DNA of 64,000 nt from an uncultured Alphaproteobacteria bacterium (GTDB lineage Bacteria; Pseudomonadota; Alphaproteobacteria; Micropepsales; Micropepsaceae). This document shows positions 4,864 through 59,433 of this stretch, one piece after another. The notes under the pieces were generated by a model, which did no database searches, had not been told where the DNA came from, and saw only the letters and a program-made list of their open reading frames with translations. Within the stretch, counting starts at the first letter, position 1; each line of letters begins with the position of its first letter. The stretch spans positions 1 through 64,000 of the forward strand of contig CAIUCH010000049.1 in NCBI GenBank assembly GCA_903897605.1. The letters are read 5' to 3'. The position numbers were made by a program, and so were the translations under genes.

Positions 4864-6357
4864 TCAAGTGTTGCGGGGGGTTACCAGCCGGTCCCGGAGG
4901 TTGGAAAGGCTTTCCGGCAGGATTTCGGCCAAGTCTTCCGCAATCAGTCCCGGGCCGAAGCGGGACGCCGCATCGCCATGCAGCCAGGCCGCCGCCGAGG
5001 CGGCTGCAAAGGGAGCCATGCCCTGGGCCAAAAGCCCACAAATCATCCCCGCCAGGACGTCCCCGGACCCGGCCGTCGCCAAGCTGGCGGGCGCGTTGAC
5101 GTTAATCGCGGCCCTGCCTTTGTTTCCGTCTTGGGGCGGAGCGGCGATCACCGTGTCATTGCCCTTGAGCAGGACCACGGCATTGGCGCGGGCGGCGGCG
5201 GCACGGGCAGCTTCGATCTTGCTGGCGGCGCTTTCCAGCAGGCCCGGAAATATCCGCGCGAACTCCCCCTCATGCGGCGTCAGCACGGCAGGGTTCTTTA
5301 TTTTGTCGAACAGCGCTTGCGGCTCCCGCGCAAAAGATGTGAGGGCGTCGGCATCCAGCACAACCGCCGCCGGGCTCGCCAGCACCGCCTCTACCAATAT
5401 GCGGGTGTGTTCGCCGACACCCAAGCCCGGGCCAATGACGACCGCGTTCAGGCGCCGGTCCGACAGAAGCGCCGCCAGTCCCTTCGCGCCCTTGAAGGGC
5501 TTGACCATGATGGCGGTAAGCTGCGTCGCGTTGATCGCAACCGCGTCGCCCTCGGCCGCCACGCTGACCAAGCCCGCGCCGATGCGAAGAGCGCCGCGCG
5601 CCGCCAGCCGCGCCGCGCCGGTCGCATGCGCGGGTCCCGATACGATCACACAGTGACCGCGGGCATATTTGTGCGCATCCGCTTTCGGCCAGCAATATTC
5701 CGCGCCCCACAAAGAGGGTGAATTCTCGAACAGACAAACGCCACCAGTCGCGGATTCGGGAATGCCAATATCGGCCAGCAGGATTTCACCGCACAGCGCG
5801 CGTCCCGGCAACAGAAGATGGGCGGGCTTCAGGCGAAAAAAAGTGACGGTGATGTCGGCCTTGATCGCGATGCCGCGCACCTGTCCCGTGTCTCCGTCGA
5901 TACCGCTGGGAACATCAATCGCTATCACGGGAACATGCGAATGGTTCACCGCTTCGACCAGTGCGCGATAGGTACCCTCGAGCGGCCGCGCCAGCCCGGC
6001 GCCGAACAGGGCATCCACGACCAATGTTGCGCCGTTCAATGCGGAAGGCTCCAGCGGCTTGCGGGTGCCCTGCCATCGCGCCGCCATTTGCGCGGCGTCA
6101 CCCTTATGGCCATCCGGGGCTGCAACGGTGACATCGAAACCATGCGCGGCCAGCAGTCTGGCCGCGACAAAGCCATCGCCGCCATTGTTGCCGGGTCCAC
6201 ACAGGACCGCGACCTTGCAGGGCGAGAAGCGGGCCGCGATGGCGTCAGCCACCGCCGCGCCCGCATTTTCCATCAAATCCAGGGATGGCACACCGGCTTT
6301 CACCGCAAGGGCATCGGCGCGCCGCATCTCCTCATTGCCGAGGATCTCGCCACTCAC
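4864..6357 (-). CDS. nnr: Bifunctional NAD(P)H-hydrate epimerase / ADP-dependent NAD(P)H-hydrate dehydratase
   Basis: Repairs hydrated NADH and NADPH. The N-terminal epimerase domain (about 1-215) interconverts the R and S hydrates. The C-terminal ribokinase-like domain (about 225-497) dehydrates the S form using ADP. Visible motifs are CGPGNNGGDGFVAARLL and IDVPSGIDGDTG in the epimerase half, and VIGPGLGVG, LTPHEGEFARIFP and AGSGDVLAGMICGL in the dehydratase half. The start is a GTG whose GTGA overlaps the amidase stop, implying translational coupling. It is the last protein gene of an overlapping aminotransferase-amidase-nnr trio, just upstream of tRNA-Leu. The 497-residue length matches the two-domain bacterial enzyme. 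Confidence 0.95.
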   Translation of the reverse strand: MSGEILGNEEMRRADALAVKAGVPSLDLMENAGAAVADAIAARFSPCKVAVLCGPGNNGGDGFVAARLLAAHGFDVTVAAPDGHKGDAAQMAARWQGTRKPLEPSALNGATLVVDALFGAGLARPLEGTYRALVEAVNHSHVPVIAIDVPSGIDGDTGQVRGIAIKADITVTFFRLKPAHLLLPGRALCGEILLADIGIPESATGGVCLFENSPSLWGAEYCWPKADAHKYARGHCVIVSGPAHATGAARLAARGALRIGAGLVSVAAEGDAVAINATQLTAIMVKPFKGAKGLAALLSDRRLNAVVIGPGLGVGEHTRILVEAVLASPAAVVLDADALTSFAREPQALFDKIKNPAVLTPHEGEFARIFPGLLESAASKIEAARAAAARANAVVLLKGNDTVIAAPPQDGNKGRAAINVNAPASLATAGSGDVLAGMICGLLAQGMAPFAAASAAAWLHGDAASRFGPGLIAEDLAEILPESLSNLRDRLVTPRNT

Positions 6358-12510: not shown

Positions 12511-13470
12511 TCATTCCGCGGGCATGGACGACAGATCATCCTTTTTCCTCTCAAAGAAGCGCTCGATCGAAGGGAACGCCCGGGCACCCAGCAATATCTT
12601 CAGGTAATTGGGCTCATCGGCGTAGCCGCTGGGGTGGCCCAGGCTCAGGGGCGCCATCACCTGCCCCTTCTCATCCTTGGGCAGATAGAATGTTCCAAAC
12701 AGAATATCCCAGAAGCTGACTCCCACGCCGTAATTGCATCCGTATCGGAATTTTTTGTCGTCCGGGAATTCGACGGAGTGATGCCAACGATGCACTTCGG
12801 GCGTGTTGAAGATGTAGTTCAGCCAGCCGCCTTTCAGATCGCTGCCGCAATGGGAAAAGTCTCCGTAAATGTTCAAGCCGCCTGCGATAACGATTGCAAT
12901 TGGATTGAAACCGACGATACCGAGCAGAAGGCCTCCCATGACATTGCGGAGCGCCCATTCGAACGGATTGGAGACCAGCACATTCGAGATCTGCAGACTG
13001 GTCACGCTGTGGTGATAGCCGTGAAGTTTCCATAGAAACTCGTTGGTGTGCTCAAGGCGATGCACCCAGTAGGAAAAGAAGCTGGCGAAGAGCAAAACCA
13101 CAAGGATTTGCACCCACAATGGGCCCAATTGATCGGAAAGCCCGAACAGGAATCTACGGCCCAAAAATGTATTCGGAAAATAATGCAAAACCGGCAAGAC
13201 CATCGCAGCCATAATGCCGCCCGCGACGAATGTCTCCACGGCTGTCGATATCAGATCACGCCAGATCATGTGCTTTTGAGAAACTCCGCGGCTGTAGGTG
13301 TAGACGCGCTCGAGCGTGATCATGGCGAAATACAGGACAAACGTATGATAGTATGGGAAGGCCTTGGCAAAGGCGCTGCCCCTCATCACCAGGGACAATC
13401 CCACCAAACCGATTAGGAGGACGGGCAATACCGCATAACGAGAAAGCTCCGCGAATTTCTTGATCAACAT
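12511..13470 (-). CDS. Sterol desaturase / fatty acid hydroxylase family membrane enzyme
   Basis: An integral-membrane di-iron oxygenase of 319 residues. The histidine boxes that bind the two irons are visible: HRLEH, then HGYHH about 14 residues on, and later HRWHH in TPEVHRWHHSVEFPD. There are about five hydrophobic segments, including three in the N-terminal half. The family hydroxylates or desaturates lipid chains, sterols or carotenoids. Which lipid is used here cannot be read. It is a single gene with unrelated neighbours; the 236-base gap upstream shows no clear features. Confidence 0.88.
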   Translation of the reverse strand: MLIKKFAELSRYAVLPVLLIGLVGLSLVMRGSAFAKAFPYYHTFVLYFAMITLERVYTYSRGVSQKHMIWRDLISTAVETFVAGGIMAAMVLPVLHYFPNTFLGRRFLFGLSDQLGPLWVQILVVLLFASFFSYWVHRLEHTNEFLWKLHGYHHSVTSLQISNVLVSNPFEWALRNVMGGLLLGIVGFNPIAIVIAGGLNIYGDFSHCGSDLKGGWLNYIFNTPEVHRWHHSVEFPDDKKFRYGCNYGVGVSFWDILFGTFYLPKDEKGQVMAPLSLGHPSGYADEPNYLKILLGARAFPSIERFFERKKDDLSSMPAE

Positions 13471-13706
13471 CTGTACCGCCCTTTTTTATTCCCCCGGGGT
13501 GGTCCCGTCAGCTGGAGAGATTAGAGATTGTCTGCGGTGCTTGAAATACCCGAACGCCAAATCCGCCGCCCTTGGTTATCCTGCAGTGCAGCATTTTGTC
13601 AGGTAATTCTCCGTCGAGCCGCGCTTTTCGATGGCGTATCGGCGAGGAAAAGCGGACGCGGCGTCGACCGCGAAGCGGTTATCCATCCGGACATGCGGCC
13701 GAAAAT

Positions 13707-15143
13707 TTAAGCCGCGACGGTAGCGTGGGACGGTGAATTGGCCGGCAAGATGACAAAGGCTGTGCAACCCGCACCTTGTTCGCTTTCGATCCAGGCGCGG
13801 CCGCCATGCAGTTCCGTCAGGCCGCGCACCAACGCCAGGCCCAACCCGGTGCCTCCGGATTGGCGGTCATAACGGTTGTCCACCTGGGAGAAGGGCGTGA
13901 AAATCTTGTCCAAGTCTTCGCGCGGAATGCCGGGGCCATTGTCGCGGACCATGATCTGGAACCCGCCGTCGCGCGCCTGACTCGCCAACACTTCGATTCG
14001 CCCGCCCTCGGGGGTGAATTTCACCGCGTTGGAAACCAGGTTGATGAGGATCTGCTTCAAGGCACGCTCATCGGCGTAGAGTGGCGGACAGGACGGATCC
14101 ACATGAATGGTGAGGGTCTGGCTCTTCTCGCTCGCCTTGGCGCCCGCCAGCTTGAGCGCGACATCGAAGGTGTGGTCTGCCTCCAGCGGATGTGGCGAGA
14201 TCTCCATCCGCCCGGCCTCGATCTTGGCAATGTCCAAAAGGTCGTTGATCAGCGACAGAAGATGGGCGCCGGAGGAATGGATGTCCCCCGCATAGTCCTT
14301 GTAACGCTCGCTGCCGACCGGCCCGAAACATTCCTGGGCGATGATTTCGGAAAAGCCCAGAATCGCATTCAGCGGCGTTCTCAATTCATGGCTCATATTG
14401 GCGAGAAACGCGGTCTTGGAGGCATTGGCGGTTTCCGCCTCGAAGCGTTTCTTCAGCGCTTCGTCGCGGGTGTCTTCCAGTTCGCGCGCCAGATCCTCGA
14501 CCTGGAAACGCAACCGGGTATCTTCCTGAGACTGAGTCACCAACGGCCGGCCCGTCCACCACATCTGCAGCGCGTATATTGGCAACGCAACCGCGATGAC
14601 GTGATCAAGATTCGAAGAGCCGATCGCAAAGCGCGCCGCCGTCATCAGCGAAATCGGCGCCAGCGCGCAAACCAGCATCGCCATGTTGCTGCCTCGCGCC
14701 AGCACCAGCGCCGACACCACGGCAATGGCGCCGGTGGCCAGGAAAATATGGTTCACGGGATTGCCGTGATCCCATAACAGCCAGGGCATCGCGCCCCAGG
14801 CGGCGCTGATCGCCAGCTGCATGACACAGTGCCAGCTGTACCAGAGGCTAAGATCGCAATCGGGATTTCGCACGGTCGCTTTGCGATAACTGACGGCTAT
14901 CGCGCCCGATACCAATGCCGCCGCCAAAACCACCGCCGGAAGATACAGGGTTTCGCTGAGGGGGCGATGGCCGAGAAGTCCGAAAATGTCGGAACATCCA
15001 ATTGCCAAGGCCAATGCCCAAAGCGGCGAAGTCGCGCGGGTCGTCCTGACCGACTGGGCCGCCAGATCAAGTTGGGCTTTCAGCACGCGGTCGTCGCCGC
15101 GGCCGGCCTCTGTGTCTTTCAAAATGCCTAGCAATTGCTTCAC
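13707..15143 (-). CDS. Membrane-bound sensor histidine kinase (paralogue 1)
   Basis: A 478-residue two-component sensor. The N-terminal 200 residues hold about six hydrophobic segments without a recognisable periplasmic domain. A coiled coil (about 210-240) leads to the HisKA domain with the phospho-accepting His in FLANMSHELRTPLNAILGFS. The HATPase domain has an N box (LVSNAVKFTPEGG), a G1 box (DNGPGIP) and a G2 box (GTGLGLALV). It resembles the PleC/DivJ-like kinases of alphaproteobacteria. No response regulator is adjacent, so the partner is unknown. The kinase at 15213 is a close paralogue, and a decayed third tail is at 11800. Confidence 0.92.
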   Translation of the reverse strand: MKQLLGILKDTEAGRGDDRVLKAQLDLAAQSVRTTRATSPLWALALAIGCSDIFGLLGHRPLSETLYLPAVVLAAALVSGAIAVSYRKATVRNPDCDLSLWYSWHCVMQLAISAAWGAMPWLLWDHGNPVNHIFLATGAIAVVSALVLARGSNMAMLVCALAPISLMTAARFAIGSSNLDHVIAVALPIYALQMWWTGRPLVTQSQEDTRLRFQVEDLARELEDTRDEALKKRFEAETANASKTAFLANMSHELRTPLNAILGFSEIIAQECFGPVGSERYKDYAGDIHSSGAHLLSLINDLLDIAKIEAGRMEISPHPLEADHTFDVALKLAGAKASEKSQTLTIHVDPSCPPLYADERALKQILINLVSNAVKFTPEGGRIEVLASQARDGGFQIMVRDNGPGIPREDLDKIFTPFSQVDNRYDRQSGGTGLGLALVRGLTELHGGRAWIESEQGAGCTAFVILPANSPSHATVAA

Positions 15144-34938: not shown

Positions 34939-35008
34939 TTATGCTATGGCCCGTCTGGCACGTTGATCCCCCAACTGTCTCAGCTCGGGCCGGCTTCGCC
35001 TCACCCTG

Positions 35009-35057
35009 GCTAGGACATCTTCTCTCGCCGATAGCTTGGCTATGCGGGGGAAGAAAG
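35009..35057 (+). repeat. Nested-hairpin intergenic repeat, degraded copy C
   Basis: Shares CTAG, ACATCT and ATGCGGGGGAAGAAA-like blocks with copies A and B. Its inner hairpin reads ATAGC-TTG-GCTAT where copies A and B read ATGGC-TTC-GCCAT: two paired changes keep the stem. It ends 15 bases before the chosen tyrS ATG. A reading frame that starts inside it would add repeat-derived residues to TyrS. Confidence 0.65.
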
Positions 35058-35071
35058 CCAGAGCCTATACC

Positions 35072-36355
35072 ATGCCCGCCGCCCCGCAATTCCAGTCCGC
35101 GTTTCTGAAGACCTTCGCCGCCCGCGGAGCCTATTACGATTGTTCCGCGCCGAGCGATCTCGACGCGCTGTTCGGGCGTGAGCGCGTCACCGCCTATATT
35201 GGGTTCGACTGCACCGCCAAGTCCATGCATATCGGCAATCTGGTGCAGTTGATGACTTTGCGCCGGCTGCAGCAGGCGGGCCATCGCCCGATCCTGTTGA
35301 TGGGCGGCGGCACCACCAAGGCGGGCGATCCGTCCGGCAAAGACGAGACGCGGCTGATCCTGACGCCCGATCAGATCAACGCCAACAAGCAATCCATGCT
35401 GAACGGCGTGAAGCATCTGCTGAAATTCGGCGACGGGCCGTCGGACGCCATCATGGTGGACAATGCCGAATGGCTGGACAAGCTGGAATACATTCCCTTC
35501 CTGCGCGAAGTGGGACGGCATTTCTCGGTCAACCGCATGCTGACCATGGACAGCGTGCGGTTGCGGCTTGAGCGCGACCAGCCCATGTCATTCCTGGAAT
35601 TCAATTATTCCATCATGCAGGCCTATGACTTTGTCGAATTGTACAAGCGCTATGGCTGCCGCCTGCAATCCTCCGGCTCGGACCAGTGGGGCAATGTCGT
35701 TTCCGGCATTGAACTGGGGCGGCGCATGGAAAGTGCACAGCTTTTCGGATTGACCACGCCGCTGATCACCACCTCCTCGGGCGCCAAGATGGGCAAGACC
35801 GCGACGGGGGCAGTGTGGCTGAACCAAGACTTGCTCAGCGTCTATGATTACTGGCAGTTCTGGCGCAACACCGAGGATGGCGATGTCGGCCGTTTCCTGC
35901 GCCTCTTCACCGACATGGCGGAATCCGAGATTGCGCGGCTGGAGCAACTGCAAGGCGCGGAACTGAACGACGCAAAAAAAGCCTTGGCCACCGGGGCCAC
36001 CGCGATCCTGCACGGCCTGGACGCGGCGGAACGCGCCGCCGAAACCGCGCGGCGGGCATTTGAAGAAGGCGCGTCCATTGGTTTGCCAACGATTGAGTGG
36101 AGTTGGTCGGAAGGAGACGTCTCTAGCGGACAGAGCTTCGATCTTCGAACAGCGGCAGCATTATTGAAAGCTTCGGGGCTCGCTTCATCACTATCGGATG
36201 CTCGTCGAAAAATTGACGAAAACGCTGTCCGGATAAATGATGTGCTCGTTGAACAACACACCCGCCTGTTCAATCGAAACGAGATTGACCCTCAGACAGG
36301 CGCTTTCAAAGTGCAGTACGGCAAGAAGAAGATCGTACTAGTAAAACCAGTATAA
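35072..36355 (+). CDS. tyrS: Tyrosyl-tRNA synthetase with a foreign-looking C-terminal S4 domain
   Basis: Charges tRNA-Tyr. About 427 residues. The class I HIGH-like motif is in SMHIGNLVQL and the KMSKS-like motif is KMGKTATGAVWL. The C-terminal S4 RNA-binding domain covers about 360-427. The ATG at 35072 (MPAAPQFQSAFLK) was chosen because upstream in-frame ATGs lie in a repeat element. From about 36076 to the stop the DNA turns visibly AT-richer with different codon choice, and a second S4 tail with native-like codons follows downstream (36430-36589). The working gene therefore looks chimeric, its tail replaced by recombination. Confidence 0.95.
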   Translation: MPAAPQFQSAFLKTFAARGAYYDCSAPSDLDALFGRERVTAYIGFDCTAKSMHIGNLVQLMTLRRLQQAGHRPILLMGGGTTKAGDPSGKDETRLILTPDQINANKQSMLNGVKHLLKFGDGPSDAIMVDNAEWLDKLEYIPFLREVGRHFSVNRMLTMDSVRLRLERDQPMSFLEFNYSIMQAYDFVELYKRYGCRLQSSGSDQWGNVVSGIELGRRMESAQLFGLTTPLITTSSGAKMGKTATGAVWLNQDLLSVYDYWQFWRNTEDGDVGRFLRLFTDMAESEIARLEQLQGAELNDAKKALATGATAILHGLDAAERAAETARRAFEEGASIGLPTIEWSWSEGDVSSGQSFDLRTAAALLKASGLASSLSDARRKIDENAVRINDVLVEQHTRLFNRNEIDPQTGAFKVQYGKKKIVLVKPV

Positions 36356-36363
36356 CCCGCGCG

Positions 36364-36448
36364 CGCCCTTCGCTTGCGCTTCGGGCGTTCGTCGCTCGAA
36401 ATGGTCCGCTGGACCATTTCGTTTGCCGTCGGCAAAACGCTCCTCACG
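36364..36448 (+). repeat. TTCGTCGCTC...CGCTCCTCAC hairpin cluster, copy 2
   Basis: Three consecutive stem-loops start 9 bases after the tyrS stop: CGCCC/GGGCG (36364-36387), GAAATGGTCC-GCT-GGACCATTTC (36398-36420, 10-bp perfect stem) and TTTGCCG-T-CGGCAAA (36422-36436). The flanks TTCGTCGCTC and CGCTCCTCAC match the repeat at 33739. It separates the tyrS stop from a second tyrS tail. Confidence 0.7.
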
Positions 36449-36589
36449 ATCGCCAACAATGGATTGAAACTGAACGATGTAGCAATCAGCGATCCCCGGC
36501 TGGTGGTAGATGCGTCATCGCTCAACGCGGATGGCGTTCTGAAGCTCTCCAGCGGCAAGAAAAAGCACGTCCTGGTGAAGCCAGCCTAG
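36437..36589 (+). pseudogene. Orphan second copy of the tyrS 3' end (S4 domain tail)
   Basis: Encodes IANNGLKLNDVAISDPRLVV and, further on, LSSGKKKHVLVKPA then a stop. It aligns with the end of the upstream TyrS (GAFKVQYGKKKIVLVKPV). It lacks the synthetase body, has no ribosome-binding site, and its apparent start lies inside a hairpin cluster. It is most simply the displaced original 3' end of tyrS. The stop overlaps that of the convergent AsmA-like gene. Confidence 0.8.
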
Positions 36590-39500
36590 TTAGGCGACAC
36601 CTTTGGCGTCGTGGCCGGCGCGTTCGACGGTGCATTGGCCGCCGTCGGCATATGGCCTTCGAATATCCGGCGCAGGATACCCGGCGTCAGCACCGACAGG
36701 GGATTGACGTCGATCTTGGGTTGATCGGCATTGCCGGTAGCCGAATAGGTGACGCCGAACACGCCTTCGCCTTTCTTCGACACCAGCACATCGCCCAGCA
36801 GGGGAATATTGCCCAATACCGAGTTGAGCCCATAGGCGGGCACCAGCGAACCTTTCAGCGCGACCTGATTTTTGGGCCTGTCGATATAACCGTCTGCCGT
36901 GGCGCCGATGGCGCGGCCACGCACCCGGGCATCGTGCACGCTGACGACATTGTTCTTGGATGAGAATGGCATGTTCAGGTTTTCGATCGAGATCCCGTCG
37001 CCGCCCATCAGATCGCCCATGCCGGTCAGCGAGCCCGCCGAGAAGAGACGCGCCAGCAAGGGCTGATTCACGACTTGGAAATCGTCGATGTCGAGCGTGC
37101 CCTGATAATCCGGCGTGGTTGTGCCAGATTCAGGATCATTGGCCCCGCCGGGCAGGGTCGCGACCAGCTTGAGTTTTCCGCCCTTGATGCTCTGGAAGTC
37201 GAACAGGCCCCGGATCAATTGGCCGGCATCGCCGGCATTGAGCGTCAACTTGCGGCCAGCCGCGCTGTTCTCGATGTCGCCGCCGATCATCGCCTTGCCG
37301 ATGCCGCCCGAGAAGGACAGAGCTGACGGACGGTTGCCGATCCCGGCAAGATCGAGATTGAACGGCGCGATCGCGACGCCATCGCGCATCGCAAGCCGGT
37401 CGAGCTTGGCATCGATGTGAAACGGCCCGGTCGGTGTATCGTCCCGGGTGGTCTGGCCGCTCACGGTGGTGCCACTCACGTCACCCACATTGCGCCCGAT
37501 CAGCGAGCCGTCCAGGGAATGACCCCGCAGCACATAATCGTCGCCCGCGGCGCTACGCGTGAGCGTGAAGGACAGATCGTTCAAGGGACCCATTTTGGCC
37601 GAGGCGAAGCTCAGCACCGCGAGCGATCCGGCGCGGTCGAAATTGGCGGTGCCATTGGCGGCAATATTGGGGCCGGTCACACGGATGACTTCGTCATGGA
37701 TGATGTCGCCGGGCCCGAAATTGACCATGATGTGGCCGGCCGCCGCCTGGCCGGGCTGCTTGCCCAGATGCAGAATGGGAATTGCCAATGCCGCATTGGT
37801 AAGATCCAAAGAGACATCCGCTGTGGTGAGTTGGCCGCGATGGCCCTGAATATCGGCATTTGTCATGACCGGCCCGGTCAGGATGTTCTGCAATCCCACG
37901 CTTAAGGATTGGCGCGCCGCATCGGTCATCACGCCTTTGGCGCTAATCCGGGTGGTGATGGGCTGCGCGGTCCTGAAGTCCTCCACCCAGTCGATCGTCA
38001 GGCGCGCATCGGCGAGCGAGACGGCGCCGGTCTGGTGCAGATGTGCGTTGTCGATATCGAAATTGACCGCGCCATTGGCGAGCTTCAAGCGCCCCAGCGC
38101 CACGGCAAAATCGCTCACCTGTGCCTTGACGGAAATTCCCACCGCGTCCACCGCAAGATCCTGGAGCATGGGGACAGTGAAGGCGAGATCGGCGCTGGCG
38201 GATCCCTTGGTCTGCCTGGGATCGATGCCGAAACGGGTGGGATAACCCAGCGGCTTCATATCGATAAGGGTCATGATCTCCGGCATCTGGCCATCGACAT
38301 GAGCGGTAAATTGCCCTGCCGTTCCGTGGACATGCAAAGTGGGAATCACGGCATGGCCGCCGCGAACCGTCAAATTGCCGACATGCCCGCCATCGAAATC
38401 GGCGGTAAAAGTGTCGCCCAGCAAAGTGGCATTGCCGGAGACACCCGTCACGTGGGTAAGGCCTTTGACGTAGCTGCCTTCCACGCCGGTCATCAGGAAG
38501 GTGAGTTTGACGGAATCGTCGGGCAAGACATCCTGATCCAGCAACCCGACCGGGAAATGCGTTTCAAAACTCATCGGCCCCAATGAGCCGGCGAAGATAT
38601 TGGCGGCAATCCACTCGCGCGCGCCCGCCACCGCCGGCAATGGCCAATAATGCAGCAAGGTGCGCACCGGCAGCGGCGCCAGCCTGCCCGTGAGGTCCAG
38701 CCCAGGCGCCTGACCGTCCGCGCCCAAGGTGATGCTGCCGTTGGCGGACAATGCGAAGGCAGGCGCGATCAGGTTGGCGTGCGCGACATTGAGCGTGCGG
38801 GACGCGACCTGGTAATCGCCGTCAAGCTGCAGAGACTGAAAGCCCACGGCATCGGCAAAGATGCCCGGCATGTTGAGCGCGATACGCGAGGAGGAAAGTC
38901 CGGCGCTGATACTGCTCAGCCCTTGCTGATCATAATGAAAATCCGCCCCGCCCTTGAAACGCATGATGCCTTCGCGGGTGTCGAACGATGCCTGGTTCAG
39001 CGCAAGATGGTTCTTCACGCCGTCATAGTTGCCATTGATATGCAGCTGGCGCGCATGCAGCACGCCGCCCTTCAACGCCTTCAGCGGCAGTTCACCGACC
39101 GCCGTCACGTCAAAATCGGCGCGGGTGATATGCGCGCCGGGCGCCACGCTAAAACGTGCGGCCAGGTTGACCGACAATGCGATGTCTTTCAGAGGGCTGA
39201 ACAAGGCGGCGTTGGCGGCCAACCCACGCAGATCAAGGCCGGTGACCAGCGCCGTGCCGTTGATCGGTCCCTTATCCGGCGGCAAGGTGACATCGGCTTT
39301 GACATGGGCAGTCCTGCCGGAAACCATCACATCGGCATCGAAATGCAATGCGATGGCATCGCCTTTTGCCGCCATTGCCAGGCTGGCTTTGGGCGCGACC
39401 GCATGCAGCCCGGTGGCCTCGTCGATCACTGCAAGGCGTGCGTTGCGAACCGCGAAGCTTTGCAATCCGGTCGTGGAGCCTTTGGCCTCGATCACATCGT

Positions 39501-58020: not shown

Positions 58021-59364
58021 ATGTTTGAGAAAATTCTCATTGCCAATCGCGGCGAAATCGCGCTTCGCGTCATCCGCGCCTGCCAGGAGATGGGCATTGC
58101 CACGGTGGCGATCCATTCCACCGCCGATGCCGATGCGATGCATGTGCGGCTGGCCGACGAAAGCGTCTGTGTCGGACCGGCCCCCGCCACGCAATCCTAT
58201 CTCAACATTCCCGCCATCATCGCGGCATGCGAAATCACCGGTGCCGAGGCGATCCATCCCGGTTACGGATTCCTGTCGGAAAACGCCAAATTCGCCGACA
58301 TCGTGAAGGAGCATGGCATTACCTTCATCGGTCCGACGCCGGATCATATCCGCATGATGGGTGACAAGATCACCGCCAAGCAGACGGTGAAGGCGCTGGG
58401 CATTCCCACCGTGCCCGGATCGGATGGCGAAGTTTCGGATACGGATGCAGCCGCAATCGCCGAAGAGATCGGCTATCCGGTGCTTATCAAGGCCACGGCC
58501 GGCGGCGGCGGCCGTGGCATGAAAGTGGCCAAGAGCGCCGGCGAACTTTCCTTCGCGCTTTCCACCGCCAGGGCGGAGGCCAAGGCGGCCTTCGGCAATG
58601 ATACCGTTTATATGGAGAAATATCTCAGCAAGCCGCGCCATATCGAAGTGCAAATCCTGGCGGACGCCCATGGCAAGGTCGTGCATCTGGGCGAGCGCGA
58701 TTGCTCGCTCCAGCGCCGGCACCAGAAAGTCTGGGAAGAAGCGGGCAGTCCCGCCCTCAACGCCCAGGAGCGCGACGAGATCGGAAGCGTCGTCACCAAG
58801 GCACTCACCAGGCTGGGTTATCTGGGCGCCGGCACGATCGAATTTCTCTATGAGGATGGCGGCTTCTATTTCATCGAAATGAACACGCGGTTGCAGGTCG
58901 AACATCCCGTCACCGAAGCGATCACCGGCATCGACATTGTACGCGAACAGATCCGGATCGCGGCGGGCAGTCCGCTGTCGTTCGATCAGAAGGATATCAT
59001 TTTCGAAGGCCATGCCATCGAGTGCCGCATCAATGCGGAAAACCCCTTCACCTTCCGTCCCTCACCCGGTCAGATCACGCAATTCCATACGCCGGGGGGC
59101 CTGGGGGTGCGGTTCGATTCGGCAATTTACGCGGGCTATCGCATTCCGCCCTTCTACGACAGTCTTGCGGGAAAGCTGATTGTACACGCCCGCAACCGTA
59201 ATGAATGTTTGTTGCGGCTGCGTCGTGCCCTGGACGAATTGGTGGTGGGCGGCATCGAAACCACCATCCCTCTGTTCCAGAAACTGGTGCGGGAGCCTGA
59301 CATTATAAACGGCGATTACTCCATCCATTGGCTGGAGAAATACCTATTCCGTCTCGGTCACTAA
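58021..59364 (+). CDS. accC: Biotin carboxylase subunit of acetyl-CoA carboxylase
   Basis: ATP-grasp enzyme that carboxylates biotin on AccB. 447 residues. Motifs: [19 protein letters not shown] at the start, [13 protein letters not shown] (ATP loop), [17 protein letters not shown] and [16 protein letters not shown]. The last codons ([11 protein letters not shown] then TAA) are repeated, slightly changed, 35 bases downstream after a hairpin (see 59399). Confidence 0.97.
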
Positions 59365-59375
59365 GGCTGTGCTCG

Positions 59376-59398
59376 CGCCATACGCTGGAGCTATGGCG
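59376..59398 (+). repeat. Hairpin between accC and its duplicated tail
   Basis: CGCCATA and TATGGCG form a perfect 7-bp stem around the 9-base loop CGCTGGAGC. It starts 12 bases after the accC stop. The duplicated accC tail begins at the next base. Confidence 0.75.
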
Positions 59399-59433
59399 GG
59401 CTCGAAAAATACCTATCCAGCCTCGGTCACTAG
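59399..59433 (+). pseudogene. Duplicated 3' end of accC
   Basis: A 35-base stretch matching 59330-59364 at 29 positions. It encodes LEKYLSSLGH then TAG, against [10 protein letters not shown] then TAA in the gene. It has no start and no upstream frame, so it is a detached gene tail, not a gene. Confidence 0.8.

Follow-up and report, generated by a model that had tools for sequence, protein, structure and literature searches.

At the 3' end of tyrS in the source genome G000, a native gene body runs into a foreign working tail, followed by a hairpin element and a remnant of the native tail (Table 1). The gene lies in the window analysed here, a stretch of 64,000 nucleotides in contig C49 of a 2.79-Mb draft of 60 contigs. 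The working tail closes with GAFKVQYGKKKIVLVKPV and a stop at 36355, 7 bases ahead of the repeat R1. The remnant, which starts GATCGCC and ends at 36589, translates as IANNGLKLNDVAISDPRLVVDASSLNADGVLKLSSGKKKHVLVKPA followed by a stop. The chimeric TyrS still matches the TyrS profile over residues 18–424, and at the limits of our searches G000 holds one copy each of tyrS and of the foreign tail. tyrS, accC, ychF and carB (NF003671) match their NCBIfam models above the curated cut-offs, and pgi, transaminase and arfA below them. The names rnj, gltD, MutL and OmpA-like are presumptive, being assigned from sequence.

Table 1 Features of the tyrS and accC loci in the window
Feature	Position	Strand	Evidence and remarks
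tyrS, whole working gene	35072–36355	+	last 90 codons are an S4-type tail unlike that of most of the genus
tyrS native body, codons 1 to about 336–337	35072–36085	+	TIGR00234 tyrS, 343 bits, residues 18–424; groups inside the genus
Left junction of the exchange	about 36060–36095	+	in the conserved FEEGA..GLP stretch
Foreign S4-type tail (tail B), own stop TAA	36083–36355	+	GC3 0.48 against 0.80 in the body; close homologs in four other genus genomes only
R1, 85-nt structured repeat with three hairpins and an outer stem, ending CTCAC	36363–36447	+	covariance model, 93.9 bits; model built from ten sequences, the window copy among them
Native tyrS tail remnant, 46 codons and stop, open frame	36448–36589	+	translation; groups with native tails
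accC (biotin carboxylase)	58021–59364	+	TIGR00514, 709 bits; gene-end scans; second swapped-tail gene in the window
accC working end	59332–59364	+	
accC insert, 36 nt, inverted repeat CGCCATA/TATGGCG	59365–59400	+	between stop and remnant
accC tail remnant, LEKYLSSLGH and stop	59401–59433	+	

The genus sample comprised 69 species genomes, G000 included, many of them fragmented drafts. Compared without gaps to five relatives in blocks of 60 nt, tyrS shares 41–56 positions per block in codons 201–320, 30–40 in codons 321–340 and 12–17 in codons 341–360. GC3 in 60-nt windows is 0.75–0.90 through the body, 0.60 at 36032 and 0.30–0.65 from 36092. The difference in GC3 between tail and body (−0.32) lies well outside the genus background, where the minimum among 420 body windows of 270 nt is −0.12. 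The remnant is of the native type. Its best identity is 91% over 46 residues (G001), its wording is near-identical to the working tails of G036, G017, G001 and others, and most genus members use this type of tail as their working tail. Against 12 relatives, the 46 remnant codons show 14–23 synonymous and 3–12 nonsynonymous differences. In a tree of the tails, which has few columns and many weak forks, the remnant falls among native tails, and the working tail groups with those of G079, G077, G018 and G013.

This working tail, tail B, is carried by G000 and the same four genomes, that is by five of 69, and these are scattered on the TyrS body tree (60 genomes), where five changes are needed to account for them. 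The carriers sit in or beside native-tail groups, several forks being weak. G000 and G079 could share one acquisition, the forks that fix the number of events being themselves partly weak. A search with tail B returned some match in 66 of the 69 genomes; the four other carriers scored at E 1.1e-26 or lower and the next at 2.4e-9. Beyond G000, nothing better than 1.6e-9 was found in 385 genomes drawn from the class. A pattern-based scan of a species-level genome collection produced 109 matches. Among the 80 of these that were listed, the next relatives were in a Hyphomicrobiaceae MAG (57%) and, after it, an Afifellaceae MAG (51%), followed at 50% and less by mostly Caulobacteraceae; no donor was identified among these listed matches. 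Searches with tail B of 50,697 phage records, 72,556 plasmid records and viral contigs returned nothing at E ≤ 1e-3, and no donor that combines the tail with the same element came to light. Two further foreign tail types occur in the genus, tail C (G021 and G070) and tail D (G028). All foreign tyrS tails that could be measured are AT-rich (tail minus body GC3 −0.19 to −0.37, n = 7); the tail B of G077, which lies at a contig end with no downstream sequence, was left out of this comparison, its GC3 value having been taken out of frame. When 60 tyrS genes were ranked by the drop in GC3, the lowest six were foreign tails, the seventh was native (G002) and the eighth was G013.

The hairpin element behind the tyrS stop is a dispersed, structured repeat. 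The stems of R1 covary, with 89.5% of cells paired and 15 pairs changed on both sides, and none of 500 shuffles scored as high on either measure. R1 is present in high copy number, with matches at E ≤ 1e-4 in 36 of the 69 genomes; G000 has 27 matches, and the maximum is at least 65, in G079. A search of Rfam with positions 35000–37000 returned nothing at a cut-off of E 1. The R1 inserts, including the 85 nt in the window, encode no protein. A RAYT was considered as the mover of R1 and rejected, since the distribution of Y1 transposase does not fit that of R1: Y1 transposase (PF01797, E ≤ 1e-5) was detected in 18 of 69 genomes and in none of G079, G085, G066, G009 and G070, which have from 42 to at least 65 R1 matches each.

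Seven genes were found in which R1 separates a working end from a remnant: tyrS of G000 and G070, pgi, transaminase, arfA-like, carB and rnj. In all seven the gene enters R1 from the hairpin-1 side, and the right end of R1 coincides with the start of the remnant to within about 1 nt; five of these cases came from a search that extended 400 nt beyond R1, and two (G070 tyrS and rnj) by the first bases after R1. The joints share 0–3 nt with native relatives, as judged by eye in three genes. No remnant was detectable at 90 of the 97 distinct R1 loci. Several other features of R1 loci were observed. Where an ORF runs into R1 from the right, it very often terminates at the TGA within the terminal GTGAG of R1, with a 4-nt overlap in 30 of 69 such ORFs (R1 loci L005, L006, L189, L268 and L276 among them). 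In the OmpA-like gene (L398, L401, L408 and L411) of several species, R1 adds GGGGTGAG after the native last residue; the idea that R1 truncates genes at its right end was dropped for this gene, as the residue before the stop is the native end. Another repeat lies directly 3' of R1 at L195 and L231 (CCTTCGACGGGCTCAGGGTGAGGAG and CCTTCGACAAGCTCACGGTGAGGAG). A transaminase gene runs directly into R1 in three species (L194, L195 and L228; G066, G035 and G090), with a remnant in G066 only.

Other tyrS genes of the genus show related arrangements. In G079, tail B is followed by one hairpin resembling the first of R1, then by GVLKLSSGKKKHVLVKPV and a stop. G018 has tail B, a palindrome, a GIY-YIG ORF (Pfam 45 bits, 1.3e-11), a matching palindrome, and then GKKKHILVKPV and a stop. 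The tyrS of G070 has tail C and R1, then VKPA and a stop. Its sister G087 has a plain native tyrS, and the sequence after the G070 remnant is almost identical to that after the G087 gene; the two genomes are an empty and a filled site. In each of G013, G021 and G028, tyrS combines a foreign tail with GIY-type palindromes, and no remnant was seen. Where remnants are present, they start at different codons in the tyrS of each genome. Single joints were read from assemblies, and assembly error is unlikely because separate genomes share the same layout.

What the initial annotation had read from the letters of the window is confirmed, and its interpretation is supported. It had described a second S4 tail behind a cluster of hairpins, a working tail that becomes AT-richer from about 36076, and the overall order of native body with foreign tail, hairpin element and native remnant. 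The second tail is in open frame and of native type, the cluster is R1 with its covarying stems, GC and GC3 fall at the predicted place, and trees and tail searches bear out the order. Body and remnant group with the organism's own clade and the working tail elsewhere, as it had expected. Native-tail relatives lack the extra segment, with G087 providing a clean empty site for the tail C event of G070. A vertically inherited tail with no S4 homology downstream was looked for and not found.

Elements of the named families stand behind the stop in 7/7 foreign-tail tyrS genes with readable downstream sequence, compared with 5/57 native-tail genes (Fisher 1.3e-6; motifs chosen after inspection). 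This association rests on the named families, because a family-blind test for stems behind the tyrS stops showed no significant difference between foreign and native tails (Fisher p 0.052, rank test p 0.35). The type of element tracks the stock of the genome, with R1 in R1-rich genomes and GIY-type elements in four genomes that have no R1 matches. Because the element is of the type common in its genome, the pattern fits a passenger or a later local insertion as well.

The small GIY-YIG ORFs (L053–L142) form a multicopy family, and the copies read are framed by TGTCATCCCCGGC..GGGGACCCAGG palindromes; GIY-type palindromes lacking an ORF exist too. Family matches at E ≤ 1e-10 occur in 48 of 69 genomes, and the G018 protein had no match in viral contigs. 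The swapped-tail layout was found at 2 of 90 GIY-YIG loci, tyrS of G018 and a gltD-like gene of G016. This count takes in L068 and L053 only, the latter through its recognised tyrS end (E-value 0.44), and six of seven own-locus matches below 1e-6 were dropped as palindrome or repeat matches (L081, L101). The remaining 88 loci have no detectable remnant, and the copies adjoin many unrelated genes.

Swapped ends in other genes were scored by composition-adjusted and stop-anchored tests; a raw local-alignment test for duplication was dropped when GC-rich false frames swamped its scores. Composition-adjusted BLAST at 98 R1 loci (97 distinct) placed pgi (G000), transaminase (G066) and tyrS below E 1e-3, where mismatched pairs give an expectation of 0.036, followed by arfA-like (G079, E 0.013) and carB (G015, L209, E 0.16). 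In the stop-anchored test of the 26 R1 loci directly after an ORF end, pgi, transaminase, arfA-like, tyrS and rnj reached an empirical p ≤ 0.01, the value for rnj (G066, remnant VSEI and stop; p 0.009) being within chance for 26 tests; the two top mismatched scores (59 and 62) were read as orthologous transaminases pairing. That test leaves carB (p 0.21) and G070 tyrS (L208; p 0.96) unscored, the latter having failed to score by BLAST as well, and both are counted on position and homology, G070 also on its empty site.

The pgi remnant is the closer match for 19 of 27 relatives and the working end for 6, with ties in the other 2. Each of the four nearest relatives sides with the remnant (in G071, 53/57 against 46/57 nt), and the sequence after the remnant matches that after pgi in G070. 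Synonymous to nonsynonymous differences between working end and remnant are 6:1 in pgi, 9:0 in transaminase, 5:2 in arfA-like, 5:1 in carB and 2:0 in rnj. Since the differences are mostly synonymous, both ends had diverged as functional genes in different lineages. Outside tyrS the drop in GC3 is slight, with G or C at 44 of 68 third positions in working ends and 49 of 68 in remnants. A survey of gene ends for synonymous differences and elements, which is insensitive to the shortest remnants (rnj, G070 tyrS and gltD-like), found tail duplications at 5/138 ends with a recognised element and 2/380 without, a contrast biased because the loci were mostly fetched around elements.

A scan blind to elements was also applied. 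Among the 131 ORF ends of the window, tyrS and accC were the only stop-anchored duplications scoring at least 40, mismatched pairs giving an expectation of 0.25. Over 30 nt, 18 of 26 accC relatives are nearer to the remnant, four (G009, G001, G030 and G016) are nearer to the working end and four tie; relatives mostly end LEKYLASLGH or LEKYLAGLGH. These comparisons weakly favour the remnant as the native accC end. A detached accC end of 30 residues was observed at G077:C161:4853–4942, on a contig other than that of the full accC of G077, and is possibly a displaced end at a contig break. In about 390 kb more of G000, ychF and a gene in L450 were found among 816 ORF ends (0.13 expected). At ychF (L453, about 13420–13760, contig C54), a GIY-type palindrome precedes a remnant ending ADVVADGGMMHFWFNN and a stop, directly followed by another palindrome family. 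The L450 gene (about 5960–6110, also C54) ends PADRVDVYVKA, followed by a GGAAAAGTGGTTCCCACTTTTCC hairpin and the remnant PADRIDVYVKA. A hairpin thus lies between stop and remnant in all four cases, accC and the L450 gene having other short hairpins. About 390 kb of G027, a genome with a single R1 match, gave one scoring end of 768 (0.38 expected), and this top score (L470) was attributed to two adjacent ORFs rich in repeats and not to a remnant. The resulting difference, 4/947 in G000 against 0/768 in G027, is too small to serve as a test. With pgi, G000 has at least five swapped-end genes in roughly 0.5 Mb. All case counts are lower bounds, partly picked by position beside elements, and the number of independent swap events is uncertain.

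Beyond tyrS of G000 the layout is seen in further genes and genomes, and wherever R1 is the element the right joint lies at its end. We consider recurrent exchange of gene tails, coupled to short hairpin elements, to be the best explanation and a probable one. The incoming DNA would consist of the 3' part of the homologous gene from another lineage, with a hairpin element just behind the stop. On the left, homologous recombination would occur inside the gene body, leaving the enzyme complete and its reading frame unbroken. On the right, the end of the element would be joined without long homology to a point inside the tail of the resident gene, and the resident tail past this joint would be left as a remnant, later to decay or be deleted. 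Tail and element presumably arrived together, and the right joint would have been made at the element end, not afterwards. We infer that R1 and the GIY-YIG palindromes are active in the process, either as sites of cutting or as a stop to repair synthesis, and do not merely lie there. The process is most likely one-sided homologous recombination in which the element fixes the other side, and the donor DNA may simply end there. The initial annotation had the element bring its own 3' end into tyrS; the foreign tail and the intact enzyme stand, and the element as the mover of the tail is supposition, as it could be a passenger of the donor DNA. A bolder reading, possible but rather unlikely, is that hairpin elements (R1 and the GIY-YIG palindromes) spread between species by way of essential-gene 3' ends together with a diverged working end, a counterpart of the fungal case described below and a home-and-rescue drive on tyrS, accC, pgi, carB and other core genes.

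Plain homology-facilitated illegitimate recombination (HFIR) would anchor a foreign end by homology on one side and join it illegitimately on the other, with the hairpins as bystanders common behind stops. A study of Vibrio, in the part available, puts it forward for effector ends that have been displaced and for orphan 3' modules (PMC5361080), and it would accommodate both the variety of elements between cases (R1, GIY-type and other hairpins) and the minimal homology at the joints. However, random breakage would not give right joints at the R1 end in every R1 case, and the four element-blind cases of G000 all contain a hairpin ahead of the remnant; we regard this explanation as rather unlikely. 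A selfish tail-replacing homing element would instead act through a nuclease, GIY-YIG or another enzyme for R1, that cuts the native tail, with repair copying in the element and a divergent, cut-resistant tail. The intact GIY-YIG element between tail B and the remnant in G018 agrees with this, as does the same layout in the mORFs of fungal mitochondria, which in the portion of the source available include a GIY-YIG case in atp9 (PMC3630166). The three foreign tyrS tail types are, moreover, all AT-rich, as expected of a separate gene pool. Yet R1 comes without a protein, and in R1-rich genomes, G009 and G085 for example, neither the G018 GIY-YIG protein (E ≤ 1e-10) nor Y1 transposase (E ≤ 1e-5) found a match. 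The GIY-YIG copies lie beside many genes with tail duplication in only two loci, tail B is paired with different elements, and the GC3 drop is slight outside tyrS. Such homing is, in our judgement, fairly unlikely.

Two further explanations carry much less weight. In one, an integrative island would once have taken the 3' end of tyrS for its attachment gene and supplied a replacement end, and would since have decayed to a scar consisting of R1. Such islands bring a replacement tail at one end and have the native gene end beyond the other, and the foreign tyrS tails are AT-rich. Against this, no integrase gene or core direct repeat was seen by eye between stop and remnant, the remnant start codon differs from genome to genome, and tail B is absent from the phage, plasmid and viral sequences searched at the threshold given above. 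pgi, accC, ychF, carB and others would also need many unrelated islands, all shrunk to a hairpin, and we find the island explanation improbable. In the other, the gene end was duplicated in tandem in place and one copy is decaying. Copying the stretch from a point p to the R1 end into p would give the observed topology, but tail B and the remnant are only 35% identical over 46 residues and belong to different clades, and the differences in pgi and transaminase are nearly all synonymous, unlike those of a decaying copy. Tandem duplication, which we think highly improbable overall, is largely refuted for tyrS, pgi and transaminase, the shortest cases excepted.

These loci preserve the states before and after an exchange of gene ends across bacterial lineages; the genes concerned are essential housekeeping genes, and the old end persists as a fossil. 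The defined joint at a structured repeat makes natural one-sided recombination testable gene by gene. Whole-gene trees such as that of tyrS mix two histories and call for caution. If the element drives the exchange, a gene drive akin to the rescue type would have arisen in bacteria.

Prophage e14 in icd of E. coli is a known case in which the incomer supplies a replacement 3' end and the native end is left beyond it. That exchange is made by an integrase and involves a long element. At the loci described here, inspection by eye showed neither an integrase nor a core repeat between stop and remnant. REP sequences and their RAYTs are similar to R1 in being short structured repeats of high copy number near gene ends, so far as the available portion of that work describes them (PMC2817692), and differ in that no Y1 transposase gene was detected in several R1-rich genomes. 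In Vibrio, displacement of T6SS effector-immunity and Rhs effectors combines 5' homology with a non-homologous 3' joint and keeps the resident end downstream (PMC5361080, in part). The Vibrio cases concern toxin modules with kept immunity genes, whereas ours concern core enzymes with a structured repeat at the joint. The pairing of one homologous joint with one of little homology, typical of HFIR, is found here as well, whereas the unspecific donor position of its illegitimate joint is not, the R1 end being used throughout the R1 cases.

The closest likeness is to the mORF hybrids of fungal mitochondria, reported for atp6, atp9, cox2 and nad3 of Glomus and, as cited there, atp6 of Allomyces (PMC3630166, in the part available). 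These have a native core, a foreign C-terminal part, an element and a displaced native end that is close to sister species, in one case with a GIY-YIG endonuclease; the same order is seen here in tyrS of G000, G018 and G070 and in pgi. The fungal genes, as that source presents them, are organelle genes whose insert holds an endonuclease ORF. In the genus studied here, an endonuclease is present in the inserts of G018 tyrS and the G016 gltD-like gene, and the R1 inserts lack one, unlike the mORFs. No bacterial report of hairpin-coupled tail swaps was found in the open-access literature searched. What is new relative to the fungal and Vibrio systems is the occurrence in bacterial chromosomal housekeeping genes, across many genes and species, with the joint at a structured repeat.
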